Assembly: GCA_028753945.1 (NCBI GenBank)
Contig: JAPNXP010000018.1
Location: 2,419,643-2,483,642 of the forward strand
Direction: 5' to 3'
Length of the DNA stretch: 64,000 nt
DNA from: Hexactinellida sp. DTS-2022
Taxonomy: Eukaryota > Porifera > Hexactinellida
Shown: in pieces, positions 1,914 through 61,112 of the stretch
Layout of the letters: every line of letters starts with the position of its first letter
How positions within the stretch are numbered: position 1 is the first letter of the stretch
The notes under the pieces: model-generated
Told to the model about the DNA's origin: nothing
The model's database searches: none
What the model saw: only the letters and a program-made list of their open reading frames with translations
Translations under genes and position numbers: made by a program

Positions 1914-2290
1914 ACTAGCGCGCTTCGCTTGCTAGGTCGCTTCGCGGCAGAACACAACCACACACCAACCGCACGGTTATGGTTGTTTATATACTTCTAA
2001 GATTGATTATTATGATTATTAAGCGTAAATAGGCCTAAAATAGTCAACTTTAACAATGTCAAAGTTTAATGGATACGTCATAATGCGATAATGAGTCATA
2101 ATGCGATAATGAATTGCAATCTGGTGTGACCAACGTGTCCGCATCATTAATGTGCATGCACATTAATAATGATGTGCATGTTATATTAAAATTTCAGAAT
2201 TTAATCTCTTAGAGGGCGCGAATTATGTGCGATTAAGTGAATTTTATTGCTTGTCGAAATGTGACCAATATCACATTTGGAAACCGTCCA
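1914..2290 (-). mobile_element. Helitron-like non-autonomous repeat, truncated copy
   Basis: This is an inverted copy of the repeat seen complete at 18659-19182. It starts with the terminal ACTAGCGCGCTTCGCTTGC (reverse of the 3' end) and includes the region around the CACACCAACCGC hairpin, here degraded. It stops at ggaaaccgtcca, about 85 bp short of the family's 5' end, exactly where the CACAGTG end of the next element begins. Confidence 0.6.
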
Positions 2291-2660
2291 CACAGTGGCT
2301 TAAAATCGCAGTTGATAGGGAATAGATATCTGTGTGCACTTTAGCCTATTATAATGCATAAATTACATATGGGTTATTGATGTTTAGAAAAAGTTTGGTC
2401 ATATCAAAATTTATATACACCTCATACTTTGTCTGTTATGACGTCATGATGATGTTACTTATTTTTTTGAAATTCTGAAATCCGCTATATCTTTAGGGAT
2501 AGCGTTGTACTATGAATTAATTACATATGGGTTATCGGTGCCTATGCATCTTTTTACATAAAAATTTTTTATTTATGGCTCCAGATGTATTAGTTATGAC
2601 ATCATGCAACTGTGTTTTTTTTTAATTTCTAGTATTAATTAATTTAACCCCTTAAATTAA
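2291..2660 (+). repeat. CACAGTG terminal repeat, candidate end of a RAG-like transposon
   Basis: The segment begins CACAGTGGCTTAAAATCGC. The same start, and similar sequence for about 100 bp, occurs at both ends of the element at 16731-17869 and in degraded form at 46648. CACAGTG is the heptamer of V(D)J recombination signals and of RAG-like transposon ends. The transposase remnant at 2754-4925 lies just inside it. No matching inverted end was found to the right, so the element is probably truncated. Confidence 0.6.
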
Positions 2661-2753
2661 TATTTAGCAATTATATGTCGACTGTGACCTAGGAATTGCT
2701 TAGAAAATTAATTAACTTATTGCCTTAGTTCATTCAAAATAGGTTTATTAACT

Positions 2754-4925
2754 TTATTCATTATATAATACACTATTTACAATAATTTCAATATTTGAAT
2801 TTTGAATCTTCTTCCTGCAGCACTTTGCTCTACTTGTATGTCCGATAGTATTACATTTTTCACACACTAGCTTTGAACGGAATCTGATTAATATAGGGGT
2901 TTCAGATAGTAATCTAACAAAAATTTCAGATATATTTGCTTCAAAGCTGATCTTTCTTGACAAATTCTCGCGATACCTACGAATTAGTTTATTACACGAT
3001 TCAGATCCTTCTTCAGAAATATTATTCAACCCAAACTTGAATTGGACTCTCTAATGAGTTATTCAGAATGAGCTAAGACCTTGTGAAGAGTCGGTGTGAT
3101 ACTTGCCCATGGAAAATTGTCCAGAATCATGATATATGTATCTTTACATATATTACCAAGAAGATCCGTTTTAACTTTCTGGCTATAATTAATTATTCGT
3201 AAGATAGCCGATATATTTGTGTGTATCAATAAAAGTGAATCCCTGTGTTGAACATCAACAAGTGATAAAACGCAATTAATATACTGTACAGGTAAACCTC
3301 CCAAAGCGGCACCCATCGGGAGAATGATTTTGTGCCGCTTTGGGAGGTTTACCTGTAATTGGATTCTGAGAAAGCTTGTCTAGCAACGTTTCCTGTAGAA
3401 CTTGTTCCACCCCTGGAATCCGGCTGATCAATTCTAAGCCCAGTTTTCTCTTCGATTAGATTCCGAACGAATTGCATGGATGTTTTGATTTGTAGACTGG
3501 TTGGGCCCCACTTTTTCTTCCCGATATTTAAATGATAAACCAGGAGATTAAAACATCGAAACAAACAAGTGTAGGAATGAAGGGGCGACGCAGGAATTAT
3601 ACCAATGGTGGAAATCGGTATATGAGTTAGATTATAACGTTGATTAGATGGAAGTGATAGAAAATGTTCAATATCTTCGAGCTCTCCAAACAATTCGATC
3701 GCATCTGATATGTGCCTATTTTTGGGAAATTCCTCTAATATTAAGTCGCGTTCTGTGAGATCATTGTGAGTTGCTGTACACATTTGGCAGCTTACCCCTC
3801 CGGCGCCAGAGAGAATCCCTGCCATTTTTCCATCAATCAGAGAACGAACGATATTAATATGTACAAGTCCTCCAGGTGATGCAACTCCTTCTTGTTTCAT
3901 GAGATCTGTATCAGGGTTGATAAGATCACACATTAACTTAAGAATGTTTTGTTCAGACTCTTTGTTAGCCAAAGAAACACAGGTCTTTGTGAAAATGGAG
4001 TTGTTTGCCAAATTACATTATTCTCAACATTTGTCACTGATAGTGGTCTAAAGCAAAAAAGAATATAATTCTTAGTTTCTCTATTTGTCTTGGATTGATT
4101 GTAGATAACATGACTGCGAGAACCATCAAGGTCATCTGCAAATTGAAACGAAGAGGATATTCTTCAGGGAGTACAGGCTGTACAGTTGAAAGTATTCTTT
4201 TCTGATGTGTGTCTGACTATATGAATATAAGGGATAAAAATACCGATTGGTGCCTGTGGATCTGGATGAAGTTGAATAAATGGTCGTAAGACGATAACAT
4301 TCCTTTCTTCTACTATTCTCTGATAAGCAGGAAATTCAATACCACTTGGAATTAAAAGCTGACGTAAACTCGTATATTTCCTTTTACCAATATCCAAAAA
4401 ATCAAGAAGAAACAACGACTTATCAATCGGAACTTTTTTCGTTATCGCATCACTAATCTCCAGCATAGGCAATCTTTTTGGAAATCTGAGCTAACTGACG
4501 GTTATCGTCTTGATTGGATAGCAATTGTAAAGCAAAAGCTGCGATTGAAATATCAGACATGTCTTCAATTTCTGCAATTTCTTTAATGGACTCCAGTATT
4601 TTAGAGAGGCGTGATCTCTGATGTTTCAAAGAAACACTATCGAGACTCTTTCTATGGATTGGTCTACTTTCATCAGGCACAGAGGACGTAGTAAAGTCAG
4701 CTGGAGTTGACGACTCTTTTTTAAGTAATAATTAAAATCGATTTGAGAATTCCACCATTCTCGATCCAATTCGTCACATTATTACGAACCCTCCACAGCA
4801 ATGGTTGCAAGGCACTATTATTTGTTCCAACAGACTCTTCAATTTCAGTCATTGCTGCTTGAATATTGAATTCATGCGACTTCAAAATCTTTGCCAAATC
4901 AAGTCTGGTCTTGGGGATATTCCGA
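2754..4925 (-). pseudogene. RAG1-like (Transib/RAG superfamily) transposase, broken
   Basis: Reading from 4925 down to 2754, five reading-frame blocks joined by frameshifts and stops give a RAG1-like core in the right order. They are: an N-terminal helical region (4925-4453); GKRKYTSLRQLLIPSG (4164-4472), matching the DNA-binding/dimerisation region; LDGSRSH (about 4110), the first catalytic aspartate; CVSLANKESEQNIL (about 3960), the second catalytic site; CQMCTAT (about 3780), the zinc C-x2-C; GGTSSTGNVARQAF (about 3390); LHKVLAHSE (about 3070), the zinc H-x4-H; and SEEGSESCNKLIRRYRENL (about 2990), the catalytic glutamate region. A C-terminal knuckle CEKCNTIGH follows. RAG1 carries the equivalents HKTLAH and SEGNESGNKLFRRF. 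The second catalytic Asp is Asn here. A 67-bp MITE interrupts the gene at 3289. Transib is the alternative family, but the motifs look at least as close to RAG1-like proteins. Confidence 0.82.
3289..3355. mobile_element. 67-bp hairpin MITE (Tc1/mariner or pogo type) inside the RAG1-like gene
   Basis: A perfect 25-bp inverted repeat (CAGGTAAACCTCCCAAAGC... and its complement) surrounds a loop of about 17 nt. TA dinucleotides flank both sides (3287-3288 and 3356-3357). It splits the transposase frame just after VARQAFSESNY. Confidence 0.8.
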
Positions 4926-4939
4926 TCACTAGCTCAGAG

Positions 4940-5037
4940 CTGCAAATGGGTCACGAGCAGTGACCCATGACCCATGTGACCCATCGAAGGAGTGACCCAT
5001 GACCCACTGTCCACTGACCCATGGGTCAATGACCCAT
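4940..5037. repeat. Irregular TGACCCAT simple repeat
   Basis: About seven forward copies and two inverted copies of TGACCCA(T) fall within 100 bp with irregular spacing. It abuts the 5' end of the RAG1-like remnant. No function is evident. Confidence 0.85.
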
Positions 5038-5478
5038 TCATGTATTATCTGACCAATTATATATCCAATATTTGAACTTAGAAGTGACTATAATGTAAAT
5101 ATAATTTAGTCTCACACAACCATGATACCAAGTTGTTTTCATAACCTTCTAGCACTACAGATACGGCTTCGATGGTCTCAGGTAACATTGAATTACGTTG
5201 AGACGTTACTATATTTAGAGCATTAAAGGCATTAAAATGCCTCTCGCTCTCTGATGATCTCTTATTACAAGTGGAATACCTTATTTCAAATTCCAACAAA
5301 ACCGCAAATGGAACTAAATTACTGCAACGTTTGAAGGCAATTTTTATATACTTGTAGGCTTTAGATAAGCTGGAAATTTGAAATTTAGAACGCCCCCAAT
5401 GAATTCGAGGATGAGACTGAAGTTAAGAGTAATGCTGTAACTTACAGAGAGAAATCCCCCTTTGGCAGACATTTTGAA

Positions 5479-6722
5479 ATGATTTATCGTAATACTTTAG
5501 TCTCAATAAGTGAATTCGAAAATAATTCGCAACTTGATCCTAGTGTATCTTATAACCCCCAGATAATTGAATTTCTTCTCACGTATTATATGCCATTGTT
5601 ACCGTTGTGGAGTGGGATAATTTTATGTACAGTTAATTCGTCAGAGAATGCAACAGACAGTAATGCGATTGTTGAGAATTGGTTCAGAATTGATAAACAC
5701 AGCATATCTAATTCAGAGACCGGGATACGAGCTGCTGATTCATCAGAACAGTTTATAATAATATTGACGATAGGATCGCGGCTTTTAAATTTGCTTTTAC
5801 CCCACTGGCTCATAAAGTGTTCAAAGTTAAGAAGAGATTACGCGTGGAGAATGAGGAGGAGTGCAAAGAGGAGTGGTCTAGAAGTAAGAAGAGTAAGTTT
5901 AGTTATACTAAACCAACTGTTGATAAAGTAAGATATTTACAAATTTCAAGTCTAGTAAAAGTTTTAATGTAGAAAATTTAAGTAAACGTTCAACAAACAG
6001 GGAGGTAGCTGCTATTTGTGAAGAAAATCCAGTTGATGTTGCTACAGTTTGTGATGGTATTTTGCGTGCAAGTGAAGTTGAAATAATTAGTGATTTAGAT
6101 TTAGTAGAAATAGCTACCATGGAATATAAGTTACCGGCATTCCAACTACTTACATATCGGGGACAGAAGAAGTTATGTGAAGATTTACATTTACAATTGT
6201 CGGATTCTACAAATTCCTTAAGAGATAATATCCCAGCTAATTCTAATTTAAAAGAATATGTTCCTTCGAAGTGTTTGCGAATTCCTGGAGATGGAAATTG
6301 TTTATTTGCATCATTATCATACTGGTTGCTGGAAAAATTGATAGTTTTAATTTAGTACGGTTGAAAGTTGTAAGGAATATGGTTGATAAGCTGAAGGAAG
6401 CATGCAATAAGTTTATTGCCAATAAATTTCCGAAGATAACTATCGTAACGTGGCGGACTATGTAGTGAAATCAAATATGAAGAGGAATTCTACGTGGGCT
6501 ACTGATGTGGAGTTATTTTCTACGGCCTTATTACTACAGACGGATATTTGGGTATTTAGTTCAGACATGGGTAATAAGTGGATGGTATTCTCAGGTAGAG
6601 GGGTTAAACTAGTTGATACTTTGGAATCTCCCCCAGGAAATAATGATGGCTATATCTATATTAATCATAATGGAGTACATTATGAACCTACATATATTAC
6701 GGGTGGATTTAATATCTACTAA
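5479..6722 (+). pseudogene. Transposon-type protein with C-terminal OTU cysteine-protease domain, broken
   Basis: The first block (5479-5931) contains PLLPLWSGIIL and DSNAIVENWFRIDKHSI, a motif I associate with uncharacterised transposon proteins of invertebrates. The frame then shifts at about 5800 and again before 5930. From 5930 to 6355 it encodes a spacer and then LRIPGDGNCLFASLSYWL, the OTU active-site cysteine motif. Another shift leads through VRNMVDKLKEACNKFI, and a final block (6450-6722) ends NHNGVHYEP, with the OTU catalytic histidine. The Cys and His are kept, but at least three frameshifts rule out a working enzyme. OTU domains remove ubiquitin and have been picked up by several transposon groups. 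The element type is not determined. Confidence 0.65.
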
Positions 6723-16730: not shown

Positions 16731-17869
16731 CACAGTGGCTTAACACATGGAAATAGGAAAAGATTCGTGGTCATCAAAATGACTCTAAATTGTATTAAAT
16801 TCAAGTTAGATAGTATGCTAACGTTCGTATGAAATTTCAATTGATTTGAAAACAAACTACGCCTATAAAAATACAATTGCACTATATCAAATGTACGTAT
16901 AGTTCCATTTGTAGTTTTGAGAATTCTAAAAATACAACACATTTCAATTCACTCTGAATTACAATATATAAGGAATCGTGGTTATTTGTTAGTCAAATAC
17001 TATACAAAATGAGTATGCTAAAGAAATATTCTATAGTGATTTACTGTTACACAGATGCATTTTAATTTTTACAGGGGGTAAAAAATCTATGTCCAAAATT
17101 CTTCAAAACTTTACAATTAAAATCTCAGGTAGGGTACATGAAAAGATCAACGAGAAATTTTGGCAGGTTTTAGATTAATGTTGCAAGAATTAAATATGGA
17201 AATCTTTTAGCTTCCGAAACAGTGCGAACTTTGAATATTTTAACGAATTCCATTGGCTCTTGTGTTGCTATGAAAATGCTAAAACTTATTATTCGCTACT
17301 ATTCAGTAGTATATCTTATTGATTATCCAAATGTTTGGAAATTATTGTATATTAAGAACAACTGAACACGTAAGGATAATTTCATCAATCAGAGCAGCGA
17401 ATTATGAACTCATAATTGGTTTTCATATTGAAGGCCGTTAGTTTTGACAATTAGGAGGTTATTTAGTGTGTTGCACAATTGACAGCTATGCTAGAAAAAG
17501 CCATCTAGGGTTTATAGGAGATCTAATACACGTTATAATTACATTCAGTAATCATCTAGCCCCTTTACATGAGTGTACAAATCCTTATATCCCTTGGGAA
17601 CTGGACTTTTACGAAATATTCCCCAAGTTCAAGATATTTGAACAATAACTATGGGTGAGTATTAAAAGATTGTTAACAAACCAAAAAATTTGTGTTTCAT
17701 TGATTTACAACAAATCGCCGCGAACTAAACTTAAAAGAGTGGATACATCATTTTGACGATGCTATTCAATTCGTAGCTATCAATAACCTATATGTCGATA
17801 ATATTTCACTTTTGAGTACCTGCAACCCAAATGCCTTATTCCTATTAACTACAGTTTTAAGCCACTGTG
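16731..17869. mobile_element. 1139-bp element with CACAGTG termini and 5-bp target duplication
   Basis: It begins CACAGTGGCTTAA and ends TTAAGCCACTGTG. The perfect 5-bp duplication ttctt flanks it (16726-16730 and 17870-17874). The right end, read inward, resembles the repeat at 2291 for about 100 bp (CACAGTGGCTTAAAA, aGTtgATAGG, ggGTTATTGAT). A CACAGTG start and 5-bp duplication are the hallmarks of RAG-like and Transib-type transposons. There is no transposase inside. One unassigned open stretch is present (17466-17648), followed by ATGG|GTGAGT. It is therefore a non-autonomous member of the family whose transposase may be the gene at 2754-4925. Confidence 0.78.
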
Positions 17870-17939
17870 TTCTTAATCTTCTAAAATTTGCTTTTAGATA
17901 TCACCTATTGTATTCAGTGATCACTACCTAATTTTATTG

Positions 17940-23035: not shown

Positions 23036-24978
23036 TTATTTAATTATTCGTCTGTTTAATAATTAAAACCTATAACTTGAGACGCGTACCGCCATGCTGT
23101 AGCTAGCTACGACGATACGTTTAATTTAGGCATACCAAGTTTAAATTGCTTCCTCTGACCTTCATTATGTACCTGATCAACTGAAAAGTACTATCTGGTC
23201 AACCGAATATATCTGGTTGCCAACCAAATCCCAAATGCTGATATTCTGCATCAACCCGAATATTGTACTAATTGGTTTCAACATTGCTTATTATCAACAT
23301 TTCTCATTATCAACTAATTTTCAGACATGATCTATTTTACAAAGTTCTCTTAGTAACAACAAATTTACAAATTTATTGAAACTCGATTGAATGTATATTT
23401 ATTTAAATGTGCTTATCCATTAACTTCAGAAAAGATTTGAAGGAAATTTGGATCCAAAAATGTCAAATATGAGAGCACCGTAGTTCCGAATTTCGATTGT
23501 ACCCCTATTTTGAATAGACTGAGTTCGAAAGAATCAAATATATACTAGTTGCTTAATGCCTGTTTTATAACACATGCTATTATTATACTGTTTTACCAAA
23601 TGACCACCTACAATAGTAATCTTGGAGATAAATTTGTCAACATTAATAATATTTTATAAATAAGCCCCTTCCAGATTACTGCAATATTCTTACATGTGTT
23701 GAAATTCCTATCAATAAATACTAGAATGGAAATAAAATCAGAATCCTATGCGCCTTTGTATCATTTCAAGCAGAGTTGTCTGTTACCCCCAAAGAGGTAT
23801 CCACATATTAGTTTGTCTAGAAATACTTAGATAATATGAGAAGCGTTGGCGGATTTTAGAAATTCCAGAAGGTTCACATTAATTAATTAAAACTTCTTCA
23901 CAACTTCTTCATATCAAATAACATCATTTACATGAATTACATCATTAATAAACAATTCTAAAACATCTCAATCAGGGTTTTAAATCAAACCAATTATTTC
24001 AAATGATTTGATTTTGGGAAAAATGATTTATTTACAGCCATGCAACTGATACATTTATTTTTATTTCATACAGAGTAAACAAACTTCATGAGTGTATATG
24101 GAGTTGCTTTTAACTACTCAGAGGATAATTTTAAAAATAAATCGTATATGTTTACCGACCATTATTTCTGCAAACTTCTTGAGCCTAAAATGATTCTAAT
24201 TTGTTGTGAATTTATTTCTTAAATTAATAAATCCTGCTTAATGCTTAATAGTCAATATTAATGAGTGTACTATCGCGAAACGACAGACTCCGAAGAGCTT
24301 TTACCAAATTAACTACAATTGAACATAAATTTTCACAAATTAAAAGCTTTTATCACGATTCTTGATTCCTAAAAATTGTTTAAATTTCTTAACCAATTAT
24401 TTAAGAGATTCTTTGATACATGAATAATTAGGTTGGAGTACTTCTTAGGGAAATCAATTAGGATTGGCATTATTGATTTACCTGAAGGAATTGTAATAAT
24501 TCATAAAAATGAATAATGTTCAAAATTTGGAGCGCCGCGCCGACTCCTGCTCCCCAAATACAAAGTAGGTTCCTCCTGAAATTCGAAGTACGTTATTATA
24601 ATAATGTTCTGTTTTGTGTTATTATGAAACAGAATTATACATAGTATACGTATTTGCAATCATTTCAATGGTTTTTATGCAGTAATGAATGATTATAATT
24701 TAATTCAATAAGAAACCCTCAATCCAATTGGAAGCACTCTAAATTAGTCAATTGTAGTTCATACTAACTTTTTAAAATTACAATTGGAATGATAATTGTT
24801 AAGCAATGGTTGGTTTCATAAAAGTGTCATACAAACCACAAGTAGTAAAGACCTTAGATACCTTAAATTCCAAAATGGCATACAAATCACCACTTATATT
24901 AATATAAAAGAGTTTCAGAGAAGACAATTCTAAAATTTCACATTTACATACCACACGTAATTATTCTTTCATTGATCA
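23036..24978. other. Left interior of the Merlin-type element
   Basis: AT-rich, non-coding. I see no reading frame, inverted repeat or family match that I can support. Confidence 0.6.
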
Positions 24979-25924
24979 TTGATGGCAATTGCTCCTTCAT
25001 TCCAACCTTTGATGGTTCCTACTATCTTCCCTACTGATAATGAAATGACATTAAAGCAACTTAATCGTGCTGTTACTATTGATGAAAATACCTGTATCAC
25101 GTGGTTGCAGACTAATGGACTTTTGGCTAGAGGGATGCTATGTAAATGCGGTAGCATGATGCGTCCTGGTGCATTTGCGGGTATATCAGAAGGAAAGGGG
25201 TGGAGATGTCCGGAAAAAAACTGTAAAAAGTTCGCATCACTGAGGATTGGTTCATTTTTCGAAGGTTCCAATGTACCATTACCCGAATTGGTAGAATTTC
25301 TCTATTTCTGGGCTAATAATCTGCAAACAACGGCATTTTTACACAAGAATCTTGGTTGGGGAGAACATACAATCACTGATTGGAAGAACTTTATTCGTGA
25401 CTTGTGTGTTGAAGTATTTTTAACTAATCCCAAACCAATTGGCAGACCTGGACATATCGTTGAAATAGATGAATCAAAATTCGGACACAGAAAATATTCC
25501 AGAGGTCGTTTACTTTCAGGTCAATGGGTATTTGGAGGAATTGATAGAGATACAAAGGAGGTTTTTATGATCCCTGTACTTAATCGAACAGCAGCAACTT
25601 TAGTCCCGATCATACAGCAGTATATTCTCCCTGGGACTACTATCTACTCTGATGAATGGGCCTCGTATAATTTAATTCCTGCTAGACATTCCAACACTTA
25701 ACCGTTAACCATAGCGTAAATTTTGTAAATCCCAGCACTGGTGTACATACCCAAACTGTGGAGAGTACTTGGGGTCAAGCGAAAAAAAGGATGAGGAACT
25801 CCATGACTACAAATCCGGAACTATTGGACACCTATCTGGCCGAAATATGTTGGAGAAAAAAATATATAGAAGCTACTTTCTCCAATTTAATTAAAGAAAT
25901 AAGGGATCAATACCCAGTAGTTTA
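24979..25924 (+). pseudogene. Merlin transposase (IS1595/ISXO2-like DDE), one frameshift
   Basis: The frame 24979-25701 begins with a zinc-ribbon-like region (CKCGSMMRPG, then CPEKNCKKF, residues about 54-83), as in IS1595-family and Merlin proteins. It continues with the catalytic core: GHIVEIDESKFGHRKY holds the first Asp, LLSGQWVFGGIDRDTKEVFM follows, and TTIYSDEWASYNLI holds the second Asp. At about 25695 the frame shifts by one base. The other frame continues NHSVNFVNPSTGVHTQTVES with TWGQAKKR, holding the catalytic Glu, and runs to the stop at 25924. All three DDE residues are present. Apart from the one shift the gene looks complete at about 310 residues, so it died recently compared with its neighbours. 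Confidence 0.92.
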
Positions 25925-46647: not shown

Positions 46648-47340
46648 AGAACAGTGACTTAAAATTGCAGTTGGTATGGCAAAGATATCTGTGTGCACTT
46701 TAGCCTAATAGAATGTAATATTTGCATATGGGTCATCGAAGTTCAGAAACTGATTGGTCACATCAAAATATATATACAGTTCAGACATTGTCTGTTATAA
46801 AGTCATGATGATATACTAAATTTTTTTGAAATTCTGAAATCTACTATATCTTTGGAGTTAGCTCAAAGATGTAGGGTTTTGGAGCGGTCTGCGCTCCAGA
46901 CTGGGATCGAACCGAAGCGATTTAATGGTCTGGACCGGTTCATCTGTCTGGACACATCCTGAATTGGACAAATTATCTGGCTCCAATCGGTTATTATTCA
47001 TTGTTTACTAATAAGTATATACGTATTAAGAAGGACAAACATAAGTGGATATAATTAGCCACTCTACTATGCGGTCTGGAACGGTCCAAATAAAGGATAT
47101 TAGTCTGAACCGTCCATGAAAAAATCAATGACGGTCCGGTCCGGTTCATGAAATAACCGGACTTGTGGACTCTGAGTTACTTTATACTATGAAATAATTA
47201 CATATGGGTCATCGATACCCATGTAATGATTGACATTCAAAAAATGATACACGGCATCAATTGTATTAGTCATGACGTCATGCAAGCATGTGTATTTTTA
47301 AACATTTTGTGGTATCAATTTATTTAACCCCTTAATTCGG
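46648..47340. repeat. Second copy of the CACAGTG-family terminal region
   Basis: Begins aacagtgacttaaaattgc and follows 2291-2660 in order (gatatctgtgtgcactttagc, catatgggtcatcga, gacgtcatgca). It is interrupted by an insertion at 46861-47173. The heptamer is degraded to AACAGTG. The right end is not identified. Confidence 0.7.
46861..47173. mobile_element. ~313-bp insertion with gagtta flanks
   Basis: Absent from the copy at 2291-2660. gagtta occurs on both sides (46855-46860 and 47174-47179). Internally ggagcggtctgcgctcc, ggtctggaccggttcat and ggtccggttcatgaaataac are rich in ccgg. Family unknown. Confidence 0.65.
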
Positions 47341-47586
47341 TATATTGTTAACTCCAATTTATTAGTTTACTCTTGTTTTTCCACTTACGTCTTTCTTTCG
47401 ATGGTTTGATTAGACAAATAATCACTACTTAATGAATTGAGGGGGATTAATTTAGACTAAATAATCCTGATATGATGGACTTCGGATACATCCATGGTCC
47501 AATTTTATCAAGTTGTGAATAGGCTTTTTATAACGAAGGTCAAAACTTTGAACACATTAAAATTGAATGTATATTACAATAATTAC

Positions 47587-56639: not shown

Positions 56640-56805
56640 TGTCATGGATTATATAACTTGTAGGCATTTCCATGCAACCACAATAGCAATAGTCACTCCC
56701 TAATAAACGTGTGTTAATATTATGTAGTTAGTTAGTATTCTCAATTGTACTTCTACCGAAATTAAAGTTTACTTCTTATACAGTTGTAAGAGTTCGTTCG
56801 TCACA
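56640..56805 (+). repeat. 5' LTR (166 bp)
   Basis: Starts TGTCATGGATTATATAACT and ends GTTCGTTCGTCACA. Very short for a Gypsy LTR. ggattatataact near its start could act as a TATA-like element. It should contain the promoter; the start site cannot be placed by eye. Confidence 0.95.
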
Positions 56806-56828
56806 TAAGTACAATTGATTTCTCTCGG
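56806..56828 (+). promoter_or_regulatory. 23-bp leader where the primer-binding site should be
   Basis: Only 23 bp (taagtacaattgatttctct + cgg) separate the 5' LTR from the gag-pol ATG. They do not contain the TGG-start sequence complementary to a tRNA 3' end that most LTR elements use. Priming may use an internal tRNA region or a self-primer, or the site may be unusual in another way. Confidence 0.5.
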
Positions 56829-59800
56829 ATGGCAGAATCGATCCATGCACCTATTCTAAAGAAGGATGAGCGTATTGAAGATTGGAAGCCCTTGTTTCAG
56901 GCAGCGACCGCGGGTTTGAGAACGACAGAGGGCGGAGTTCTAAAGGCGCTACAGATGTTACCCAATTACGTAAACCGTACTTACGCAGAGCGCAGGTTGG
57001 TAGTTGAGGTGATTGAGGAAAACAGGGAAGAGGAGAGCCTGGACGTAGCATTCGCCACTTTGATCAAGCAAATCGACCCTCCCAAAGACCCCCATCGTGC
57101 TTTACGAGAGTTAAGAAAAACGGATTGGCAGGCGGGTGAGAGTGTAGATGACTTTTTCTACCGCATGCAAGATCTAGCCCGTGAAGCAAGGACCTCCACG
57201 TCAATGGCGTGCAACATTTTCGTATCTCAGCTCCCCCTGAGTATACAACCTTCGTTGCGAGAGTGGCTGGATGTCCGAGAAGAAGTAGGTACCAAGGAAG
57301 CTCGAGAGCTGATAGTCAAAGTGAAAACAGCATTAGTAGAGAAGAATATACCTTTGGACTACGGGTATAGAGAGTTAGGAAAGATCGCGGTCCTTCAACG
57401 GGATGAAGCGCCGAAAGTAAGGGTGGAGCCCGCCCCGGAACGAGAGATACCACAGGACGAGGGTGAATGCCCGTCAGTATACATTACGACTAGCGGTAGG
57501 CCTAGAGGCGCGTCACGTGGTCAGGCTTATGGGCAGGGCAGATCGAGACCTTTCGAAAAACGTACCAGTGGCCAGTACCAACAGAGAGGACGTTGTTTTA
57601 TCTGCGGGTCAAACCAGCATTTCATGTCTCAATGTTCGGAGCGGTACTGCCCAAAGTGCGGAGAAAAAGGACACGGAACCCGGAATTGCCCCAACACGAA
57701 AGCCTATAGGGGTGTGTTTCAAGCAGTTTCCAGGCAAGATGGAATAAGAGACACCGCAGTCGTAGTGGCCATGAAATGGAACGATCAACCAATAGATGTG
57801 ATGATCGATACAGGAGCTGACCCCTCCGTCGTGGATAAGCGTACCATCCAAGCAATGCAAATTCCCTACGAAACGAAGGAGGATCGGGTATACGGGCTTG
57901 GTCGAACGCCACTAGTGGTATGTGGTGTGGCCCGGGTTTCTATAGACATCGGAGATTCCCATCTAGTAGACCATGAGATTGAAGTACTCGACACAGACGC
58001 AAGGACCGCAATATTGGGTAGGAAGTTTCTATCGCTGTATAAAGATACTACTTTCGATTGGGAGAATTGGCGAGTGAGGTTGGGGGAGCATTGGGTGCCT
58101 TCTCTAGCTGCTGTCTACGGAGGTCAGGCGGTTACAAGGGCTGAGGTAGTGCGAATAGAGGCCGAGGGCGTCAGTTCAACTATCACGACTGGATTCGATA
58201 TAAACCAGCAACTGTCTTCCAAGCAACGTCAAGCGATTTATCGGGTGTTAGAGAAGTGGAGAGGGGTTTTCGCAGAGAACCCGAAGAAGCCTCAGGAAAT
58301 CAGAACGGCTGAGCATATCATTACTTTATTAGATGAGCGACCGATCCGTCACCGGCCGCTCCGTGTATCTCCTGAGATGGAAGCAGAAGTTTCTAAACAA
58401 ATAGACGAAATGCTATGTAATGGGATAATACGTCCCTCGTCCTCACCTTGGGCCAGTCGGGTAATTTTGGTCAAAAAGAAGGATGGATCGCGGCGATTCG
58501 CCGTCGACTATCGGGATTTGAACGATATATCCAAGAAGGATGCTTATCCGATGCCTGACGCGCGCGACTTGTTTGATAGAATGGGAGGTTGCACAATATT
58601 CTCGAAACTGGACGGCGCATCGGCTTATTGGTGTATCCCAATGAGAGAAGAGCATAAGGAGTTCACTGCGTTCGTTTCTACACGAGGACAGTTTGAATTC
58701 AACCGAATGCCATTCGGTTTATCAAATTCGCAGGCGACTTATCAGAGAGCAGTGGATCAAGCACTCCGAGGATGCCCAAACGCCCAGGCTTTCGTGGACG
58801 ATACATGTGTGCACTCGCACGATTTCGAGGCTCATTTGGACCATTTGGACCAAACGTTAGGTAGGTTTAACCGAGCCGGGATTCAACTGCGAGTTGATAA
58901 ATGCTCTTTCGGATATGAGGAGGTCGAGTTCCTGGGTCACCGAGTCTCTAGTAAGGGTAGACGTCCACTCCCCACAACTTTATCCAAAATTTCAAAATTT
59001 CCCCGCCCGCGGAGTAAGAAGGAGGTGCGCCAGTTCATGGGGCTGGTGAATTGGTATCGCGATTATATTCCAAGCGTGTCAGATACGGCAGATCCATTAC
59101 TCGCGCTGACAAACAAGGGGACGGAGTGGCTTTGGACAAAGGAGTGTGAGTGTAGTTACCAGAAGTTGAGGACACAGTTAATTAATGAGCCACAGCAGTT
59201 GGCTTTCCCGGATTGGAAGGTTCCTTTCTACGTAGAAACCGATGCATCAGGTATAGCGGTGGGGGCAGTACTCTCTCAAGATGATGTAACCGGCAGGAGG
59301 AGAATATTAGAGTTCTGCTCGAGTAAGCTGAACGACGCTCAACGGAAATACTCAGCGGGAGAGTTGGAGACCTACGCAGTGGTGGCTGCATTAAGGAAAT
59401 GGAAGGTCTACTTGCAAGCGGCTAGTAGGGTCGTCATAATCACCGACCACCATCCTCTGGAGTGGCTGAGGCGACAAAGAGACCCGAGGAACAAGTACGC
59501 AAGGTGGATTCTTGAATTCGAGTCCATTCATTACGAAATCCAGTATCGGAAGGGTTACGAAAACGGAGCGGCAGACTATTTGAGTCGGGTGCCTGGGGAC
59601 GTAGATGACGTCATGGCTGACGAAGATAGTTTTGAGCGAAATGTGTATTGGTTAAATCGGGAGGTTAGCTTACTACGTGAAGACTTAACGGTGGGGCAGC
59701 TGAAGGACCAGAGTATCGTGAATGCCATCAAGCAACTACGAGAACAAGGAGAGATTATGTCGGGTCCTTTCAAAAAACAGGAAGGTATGCGAATAGACGA

Positions 59801-61112
59801 ATTAGGTAGACTCTTTCGGAAAAGGGCGTTAGTAATTTCTCGGAATCAAAGAGCAGAAGTTACCGAATTAGCACACAGAGTCACACATTCGGGGGTAGAG
59901 AAAACGTGTGCGTATTTACGAGACCGATTTTATTGGATAGGGATGAGGAAAGACGTGGAACAGTGCTGTAGGGTGTGTATAGTGTGTTTGGAGAACAAGA
60001 GAGTGATGAAGAAAAGAGAACCGTTGAAGCCGATCGTATTGAATAACCCAGAACCGAGAAGAGCTATTGCAGCAGATATTGCTGTCCTACCTTGGGGCGC
60101 GGAAGGATACCGATATATATTGATAATCATTGATCTGTTCTCGAAGTTCGTTGAAATCGTCGCTATGCGAGACCAAACAGCTGAGTCCGTATGCAATGCG
60201 CTACTAAATGGGTGGATTTATCGGTATGGAGTTCCAGACATGCTCTTGACGGATCAGGGAAGGAACGTCGATGGAGAAGCAGTACGAGAAATGTGCGCAG
60301 GTTTCGGGATAAAGAAAAAACATTCATCGGCATATCACCCTCAGGGCGATGGGCAGGCGGAACGAGCGGTAGAGAGTGTCAAACAAGCATTGCGCTGTTT
60401 TCTTGTAGACCGTAACTTGGATAAGACAAGTTGGCCAAGTGTGCTCCAGGAGGTAGCATTTAATGTGAACTCATTGATGAGTAGCAGTACAAAGTTCACA
60501 CCTCAAGAACTGATGTTCGGAGCAAGTATAAGGTCGGCGATCGATCAGGTCGTGGGGGATTGTCAGAAAACGGGTGGCAAAGAGATGAGATCCAGGGAAC
60601 AGGAGGAATGCGTGAAGGAGGCTGCTGAAAATATAGCCAGTGCTAAATCCCAGGCTAAAAAGTACTATGACAGGAATACAGTAGAAAAACCGACGTGTGT
60701 CCTGGTGGGTCAGAGCATTTTACTAAGGAACTTTACGCGAGAAGATGGGTTAGCTCCAAAGTATATAGGCCCTTACTTAGTATGCGATACCAAGTACCCT
60801 AACCTAAAGATTAAAAGGGGAAACAAGTACTCGTGGGTTCACCTCAACAATTGTAAGATAGTTCCTGAGCTGTCTCCCGAAATACTACATCCCGAGGAGG
60901 CGATGAGTGAACCTATTCCCCCAGAGACAGACGTGGCGCAATCGGCACAGTTGGATGGTAGCATATCTTCACAAGCGGATATAACCGAGGACGAAGTAGT
61001 AGAACATATATCGATAGAGGAACCGGAAAATCCGTCATTAAGCGGATTGAGGCGTTCGTCTAGGATTCGCAAAGAACCCGAGAGATTTGGTGCTCCTGCC
61101 TACTGGTCGTAG
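56829..61112 (+). CDS. Gypsy Gag-Pol polyprotein, 1427 residues
   Basis: One frame encodes the whole polyprotein. Order: a Gag-like helical region (about 1-200); two zinc knuckles from residue 256 (CFICGSNQHFMSQC and CPKCGEKGHGTRNC); protease with DTGAD at 327-331; reverse transcriptase with FVDD at 655-658 (Phe in place of the usual Tyr); RNase H with Asp 805 (YVETDASG) and TDHHPLEWL; integrase zinc finger (H1016, H1020, then CCRVCIVC); integrase core with D1083, D1142 and E1178, exactly D,D35E; and a basic C-terminus (SSRIRKEPERFG). There is no stop or frameshift between gag and pol. No env-like frame follows. The order RT-RNase H-IN is that of Ty3/Gypsy. The element is related to the remnant at 3-1672. 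Confidence 0.97.
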   Translation: MAESIHAPILKKDERIEDWKPLFQAATAGLRTTEGGVLKALQMLPNYVNRTYAERRLVVEVIEENREEESLDVAFATLIKQIDPPKDPHRALRELRKTDWQAGESVDDFFYRMQDLAREARTSTSMACNIFVSQLPLSIQPSLREWLDVREEVGTKEARELIVKVKTALVEKNIPLDYGYRELGKIAVLQRDEAPKVRVEPAPEREIPQDEGECPSVYITTSGRPRGASRGQAYGQGRSRPFEKRTSGQYQQRGRCFICGSNQHFMSQCSERYCPKCGEKGHGTRNCPNTKAYRGVFQAVSRQDGIRDTAVVVAMKWNDQPIDVMIDTGADPSVVDKRTIQAMQIPYETKEDRVYGLGRTPLVVCGVARVSIDIGDSHLVDHEIEVLDTDARTAILGRKFLSLYKDTTFDWENWRVRLGEHWVPSLAAVYGGQAVTRAEVVRIEAEGVSSTITTGFDINQQLSSKQRQAIYRVLEKWRGVFAENPKKPQEIRTAEHIITLLDERPIRHRPLRVSPEMEAEVSKQIDEMLCNGIIRPSSSPWASRVILVKKKDGSRRFAVDYRDLNDISKKDAYPMPDARDLFDRMGGCTIFSKLDGASAYWCIPMREEHKEFTAFVSTRGQFEFNRMPFGLSNSQATYQRAVDQALRGCPNAQAFVDDTCVHSHDFEAHLDHLDQTLGRFNRAGIQLRVDKCSFGYEEVEFLGHRVSSKGRRPLPTTLSKISKFPRPRSKKEVRQFMGLVNWYRDYIPSVSDTADPLLALTNKGTEWLWTKECECSYQKLRTQLINEPQQLAFPDWKVPFYVETDASGIAVGAVLSQDDVTGRRRILEFCSSKLNDAQRKYSAGELETYAVVAALRKWKVYLQAASRVVIITDHHPLEWLRRQRDPRNKYARWILEFESIHYEIQYRKGYENGAADYLSRVPGDVDDVMADEDSFERNVYWLNREVSLLREDLTVGQLKDQSIVNAIKQLREQGEIMSGPFKKQEGMRIDELGRLFRKRALVISRNQRAEVTELAHRVTHSGVEKTCAYLRDRFYWIGMRKDVEQCCRVCIVCLENKRVMKKREPLKPIVLNNPEPRRAIAADIAVLPWGAEGYRYILIIIDLFSKFVEIVAMRDQTAESVCNALLNGWIYRYGVPDMLLTDQGRNVDGEAVREMCAGFGIKKKHSSAYHPQGDGQAERAVESVKQALRCFLVDRNLDKTSWPSVLQEVAFNVNSLMSSSTKFTPQELMFGASIRSAIDQVVGDCQKTGGKEMRSREQEECVKEAAENIASAKSQAKKYYDRNTVEKPTCVLVGQSILLRNFTREDGLAPKYIGPYLVCDTKYPNLKIKRGNKYSWVHLNNCKIVPELSPEILHPEEAMSEPIPPETDVAQSAQLDGSISSQADITEDEVVEHISIEEPENPSLSGLRRSSRIRKEPERFGAPAYWS

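Follow-up and report, generated by a model that had tools for sequence, protein, structure and literature searches.

The stretch of DNA analysed here, 64,000 nucleotides of the genome of the glass sponge Hexactinellida sp. DTS-2022 (hereafter the window; contig JAPNXP010000018.1, positions 2,419,643 to 2,483,642; G000:C10:2419643-2483642 in a genome of 112.4 Mb and 18 contigs), carries a frameshifted transposase relic on its minus strand at 2291-4933. We consider it very probable that this relic is what remains of a Transib-superfamily DNA transposon of the cut-and-paste type, decayed and truncated at its 5' end, with features most like those of Subgroup I. The gene, its conserved catalytic and zinc residues, the ends, the 5-bp duplications, the empty sites and the near-identical copies of the family are observed directly. 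The superfamily itself is already known. No sponge Transibs are reported in the titles or abstract openings listed by literature searches for Transib with Porifera (9 of 10 papers) and with sponge (10 of 20).

A broken transposase gene with one surviving end

Seven reading-frame pieces, whose neighbours overlap or nearly touch, make up the relic gene from 4933 to 2754 on the minus strand, and the damage to it consists of frameshifts, stops and small deletions. A sequence-only reading of this DNA had pointed to RAG1-type blocks in the correct order on this strand and to an end beginning CACAGTG about 460 bp past the 3' end of the gene, and both observations hold. The four motifs (LDGSRSH, CQMC, HKVLAH and SEEGSESCNKLIRRY) follow one another in this order in frames running from 4163 down to 2754, and CACAGTG stands at 2291, about 460 bp beyond the gene end at 2754. 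The genome also holds a full-length element, L010, whose alignment with the relic falls into two segments of 94.2% and 94.3% identity (92% with indels counted through) and stops base-exact at 2291. The features of the relic are as follows.

2754..4933, minus strand: Transib transposase relic, 5'-truncated and broken (frame pieces, protein matches, blastn about 94% to intact L010)
3933-4163, minus strand: relic reading-frame piece with the LDGSRSH motif
3349-4017, minus strand: relic reading-frame piece with the CQMC motif
3059-3379, minus strand: relic reading-frame piece with the HKVLAH motif
2754-3050, minus strand: relic reading-frame piece with the SEEGSESCNKLIRRY motif
3286..3355 (about), no strand: hairpin-like insert of about 70 bp, absent from the L010 alignment, inverted halves visible
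2291..2340, plus strand: 3' terminal inverted repeat, beginning CACAGTGGCTTAAAATCGCAG, at the base-exact end of the L010 alignment
2291-2297, plus strand: heptamer, with the second block (TAGGGAATAG) further in
2286..2290, no strand: GTCCA, expected copy of the target duplication by position only; no partner copy found

The heptamer is not significant by itself, because CACAGTG occurs six times in the window against 4.5 expected, and we rejected it as free-standing evidence; CACAGTGGC is seen three times against 0.12 expected. The terminus is real because the L010 alignment ends exactly at 2291 and because CACAGTG termini flanked by 5-bp duplications are seen in other copies. Neither a paired-end search nor the L010 alignment revealed a recognisable 5' end, second end or target duplication of the relic, and the first 721 bases of the L010 element are missing from it. 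A candidate 5' end at CACTGT near 5010-5020 was dropped, as it lies inside a TGACCCA satellite and has no match to the 5' terminal repeat. By eye, the TGACCCA unit forms a short tandem array at 4944-5040, next to the break at the 5' end of the relic. A 123-bp match between window 5269-5391 and L010 91-213 lies outside the relic and is not counted as part of it; it may be a shared unrelated repeat.

The relic pieces retain the DDE residues (in DDLDGSR, ANKESEQ, SLIDGKM and ISEEGSE) equivalent to those of 13 copies of the family. The equivalents of D600, E662, D708 and E962 are kept in all 13. Searched as a pieced protein, the relic matches HzTransib (Helicoverpa zea, PDB 6pqn) best, at E 3.6e-14. 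Amphioxus RAG1L (0.0039) and RAG1 (0.018) do about as well as one unrelated chain (0.017), and the match of the relic to Pfam RAG1 (6.4e-4) is below the family cut-off. Intact L010 matches HzTransib at E 8.5e-26 and stands above the Pfam RAG1 cut-off (31.6 against 25 bits). These HzTransib E-values, together with the passage of L010 over the Pfam cut-off, show that the protein match is not due to chance.

The family across the genome and its unequal ends

With a 222-aa relic piece as query we found at least 151 transposase matches genome-wide, broken copies included, whereas described Transibs have one or a few autonomous copies per animal genome (PMC4411706). We examined 24 loci (20, and 4 added), picked either as near relatives of the relic or because they have long open frames. 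A transposase open frame of 711-757 aa is present in 11 of the first 20, and one of 712 aa in one of the four added loci (L035). The paired-end search, which itself required CAC, covered these loci and the window relic, and 15 of the 25 are elements with both ends (L010, L012, L013, L014, L018, L020, L021, L022, L024, L025, L026, L027, L028, L036 and L037). A complete non-autonomous element at window 16731-17869 brings the set to 16.

Copies compared in pairs agree at 98.1-99.7% of DNA positions across long segments, and the family has therefore moved recently. Empty sites, defined as another copy of the surrounding repeat that lacks the insertion and holds one copy of the 5 bases (mismatches between repeat copies allowed), are present for 4 of the 16 elements (L020, L021, L028 and L036); L025 has candidate spans of this kind. 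The 5-bp target site duplications are perfect in 15 elements and match at 4 of 5 bases in the remaining one. Among the 32 ends, 31 read CACAGTG and one reads CACATTG.

Both ends have a second block, consensus GGAAATAGG, in common, which at the 3' end stands 9-10 bp deeper inside the element; the spacers from the heptamer to this block are about 11 bp (5') and about 20 bp (3'). When only shifts of at least 3 are considered, the best shift between the two ends is +9 in 12 of the 16 elements, +10 in three (L010, L012 and L037) and +14 in L018. L018 appears to have lost 4 bp from its 5' end, because its close relative L037 has +10. The +9 optimum is tied with another shift in 5 of the 12 (L024, L025, L027, L036 and the window element). 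With shifts unrestricted, this best match is equalled or surpassed in four of the first 13 elements: in L024 and L028 by shift 0, at which the outer repeats match each other, in L025 by -2 and in L027 by -8. The scores totalled over 12 subfamily representatives are 91 for shift 9, 81 for shift 0 and no more than 66 for any other shift. The best shift stayed at or below 77 in all of 1000 shuffled sets of 3' ends, and with 1000 mispairings between subfamilies shift 9 averaged 72 with a maximum of 83; neither procedure reached 91 once. Element by element, 6 of 13 pass the shuffle test at 0.05, and the strength of the signal is in the sum over elements. The shuffle and mispairing scores together indicate that the offset is in part a motif common to all and in part a block whose changes at one end of an element are matched at the other.

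Judged by analogy, the spacers of about 11 and 20 bp are a counterpart of the 12/23 rule of V(D)J recombination. The heptamer is identical to that of the recombination signal sequence (RSS), and in both systems a second block stands at a short and a long spacing. The two differ in the block itself, which here is GGAAATAGG-like and varies between subfamilies, in contrast to the ACAAAAACC nonamer of the RSS. The RAG1L-RAG2L transposons (ProtoRAG, AanRAGL) likewise have ends starting with CAC, 5-bp duplications and two-block asymmetric ends, and the RAG-like element of Aureococcus, AanRAGL, has spacers of 4 and 13 bp (PMC9435367), which differ by 9 bp as in the family here. Within Transib, symmetric ends are the rule in most families, HzTransib among them (PMC8289069), and asymmetric 12/23-like ends occur in a few insect members (PMC8355894). 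All Subgroup I Transibs and some of those in Subgroup II are asymmetric (PMC9435367), so the feature is not diagnostic of Subgroup I.

In intact relatives a single open frame codes for the one transposase, which is about 710-750 aa long. A dimer of this protein would bind both ends through an NBD-like helical region and the core, and in some subfamilies the zinc-knuckle tail may join in end binding. The transposase would nick before the CAC of CACAGTG, hairpins would form on the flanking DNA, and the excised element would be joined to its target across a 5-bp stagger. The nick-hairpin chemistry and the role assigned to the two-block, unequal-spacer ends are carried over from HzTransib and RAG1.

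It is tempting to speculate that a RAG2-free Transib population, in which the exact RSS heptamer and the 9-10 bp offset persist across some 12 diverged subfamilies and the two ends vary their second block together, follows a 12/23-type pairing rule without RAG2 and outside the RAG lineage. We hold this only tentatively; if true, the rule would be older than RAG2. The population is more useful than the relic, as it offers several intact, near-identical, recently moved Transibs with CACAGTG and unequal spacers. Should the asymmetry prove to be required for transposition, they would make it possible to test directly if a 12/23-type rule preceded RAG2, a question about how adaptive immunity arose. 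Beside HzTransib, the intact copies are also candidates for biochemistry.

Placement between Transib and RAG

We place the element in the Transib superfamily and not among the RAG-like (RAGL) transposons. The family has a RAG1/Transib core with DDE residues, ends starting with CAC, one gene, and 5-bp duplications, the last being those of the relatives (the relic has one end only). Within the superfamily, the features of the family, set against the published description of Tao et al. 2022 and not derived from the tree, suggest that it is nearest Subgroup I, the Transibs that are nearest RAG1L (PMC9435367). It shares with that subgroup a single gene, asymmetric terminal repeats, 5-bp duplications, an alpha11-alpha12-sized region and, in half of the aligned members, a zinc tail.

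An ordinary Subgroup II Transib like HzTransib, without any special tie to RAG1, is the alternative that fares best, though we think it improbable. HzTransib is the top match in every comparison, by sequence and by fold, although the fold comparison cannot separate Transib from RAG1 here. Single-copy scores for L010 are 94 bits (HzTransib), 48 (RAG1L) and 28 (RAG1); a family profile against the PDB gives 159, 73 and 57 bits in the same order. HzTransib has the same DDE residues and ZnC2/ZnH2 ligands, and the 13 transposases are 23.1-28.4% identical to it. A zinc tail is missing in 5 of the 12 aligned members, a difference from Subgroup I as described and a point in favour of Subgroup II, and asymmetric ends, as noted above, fit either subgroup. 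What speaks for Subgroup I is the RAG1-sized zinc-domain region and the RAG1L-type zinc tail. The distance from the zinc CxxC to the active-site histidine is 69-70 residues in the 13 copies, near RAG1 (68) and RAG1L (64), whereas HzTransib has 34 (23 in the fragment used and 11 residues not printed); the alpha11-alpha12 equivalence of this region is judged by length only. A CTT1-type tail, Cx2Cx3GHx3-6C, is present in 6 of the 12, with one more that has S for G; the relic has Cx2Cx3GHx5C, and the CTT1 tail of RAG1L is Cx2Cx3GHx4C.

The sequence-only reading had taken the relic for that of a RAG-like transposon. Its origin from a RAG1/Transib-superfamily transposon is borne out, as is a terminal heptamer identical to that of the RSS, but descent from the RAG1L-RAG2L type, with the RAG2L gene since lost, is very unlikely, and we reject it on gene content, identity and tree. 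The heptamer, the RAG1L-type zinc tail of the relic, the RAG1-sized span from zinc CxxC to histidine and a weak NBD-like match (E 0.041) would fit such an origin. The NBD-like region is preceded by about 100 residues in intact copies, and an NBD, like asymmetric ends, is not confined to Subgroup I (PMC9435367). Pfam searches of 12 members at E up to 0.1 matched RAG1 (12), zinc knuckles (3 and 1) and DeaD_dimer (1); the N-terminal non-core zinc fingers of RAG1, which ProtoRAG carries, were not found in the intact copies. RAG1L-RAG2L transposons also differ in carrying RAG2L. The sequence-only reading had suggested looking for a RAG2-like kelch gene in other copies, and none of the 15 transposase-bearing elements (2.9-3.8 kb) has a second gene: every ATG frame of at least 100 aa is the transposase or its pieces, a test that a gene split into short exons would escape. 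A genome-wide RAG2 search matched nothing, but no positive control responded, so this is not evidence of absence.

The 13 transposases share 18.6-21.4% core identity with amphioxus RAG1L, whereas amphioxus RAG1L and mouse RAG1 share 34.1%. A search with RAG1L gives 251 bits for mouse RAG1, 24-50 for the 13 family copies and 19 for HzTransib. Identity of the 13 to mouse RAG1 is 17.8-22.2%. Martin et al. 2020 (PMC7204232) split Transib from RAG1/RAG1L by identity below 22% and by lack of the N-terminal region; one family value, L020 against mouse RAG1 at 22.2%, lies above that line.

In an unrooted tree of 18 rows with one named Transib, RAG1 and RAG1L separate from the others with full support, accompanied by long-branch warnings. 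Placing the relic's subclade, chosen after the tree was seen, beside RAG1/RAG1L is rejected by the approximately unbiased (AU) test (p-AU 0.006). Nor is a firm place of the core inside ordinary Transib, which the sequence-only reading had named as fatal to its proposal, clearly borne out: the family has Subgroup I-like features, and neither deep branching is rejected, whether the whole family goes with RAG1/RAG1L apart from HzTransib and L039 (p-AU 0.32) or with HzTransib apart from RAG and L039 (p-AU 0.25). No Transib relatives were found in the bacterial genome and viral contig collections that we scanned.

That the window copy is a domesticated gene can be dismissed, since its reading frame is disrupted and since ends and duplications, with empty sites in four cases, are present in the sister copies; nothing in the window copy favours domestication, and the nearest thing to it is an intact, end-less relative elsewhere. 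This relative, L039:1716-3809 (G000:C2, about 3227715-3229808), is an intact frame of 698 aa that keeps the DDE residues and is 26-31% identical to the Transib transposases. It has no zinc tail, and no paired ends were found in the 6 kb examined. Among the genome loci scored it is the best match to amphioxus RAG1L (80 bits, the next having 49), yet its own best match is still HzTransib (104 against 80 bits). L039 is a candidate for a domesticated gene or for a member of a second lineage.

Other elements and frames in the window

Two further members of the same group lie in the window.

16731..17869, plus strand: complete non-autonomous element of 1,139 bp, ends CACAGTGGCTTAA, no ATG frame of at least 100 aa
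16726..16730, no strand: target duplication TTCTT of this element, left copy, a perfect match to the right copy
17870..17874, no strand: target duplication TTCTT of this element, right copy, a perfect match to the left copy
46651..47347, minus strand: second, more decayed 3'-end relic of the same element type, 86% and about 76% identical to L010

Over about 550 bp, in its 5' half, the non-autonomous element is 83-84% identical to the elements L013 and L014. The second relic is split by an unrelated insert, and its matching parts are 46651-46862 and about 47174-47347.

The GC content of the window is 33-38%. By eye, a 1440-aa open frame at 56790-61112 has the appearance of a Ty3/Gypsy-type retrotransposon polyprotein, as does a broken frame at 1-1672. 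A 241-aa frame at 24976-25701 seems to resemble ISXO2/IS1595-type transposases; a PDB search up to E 1 gave no match for it. Frames at 5927-6722 have weak OTU or otubain matches, and a clear OTU domain (2e-10) is present at L023:2207-2950, near another Transib copy. Elsewhere in the genome, the ends of contigs C1 and C11 (L029-L032) consist of long tandem units that are similar between the two contigs, with no TTAGGG-type repeat in the parts inspected. Genome-wide searches for COX1, insect cuticle and Wnt genes matched nothing; for cuticle and Wnt no positive control responded, so these two results do not show absence. The genome also holds an 18S gene that reads as one of a non-bilaterian animal and at least 153 SRCR-domain matches, which together suggest a sponge.
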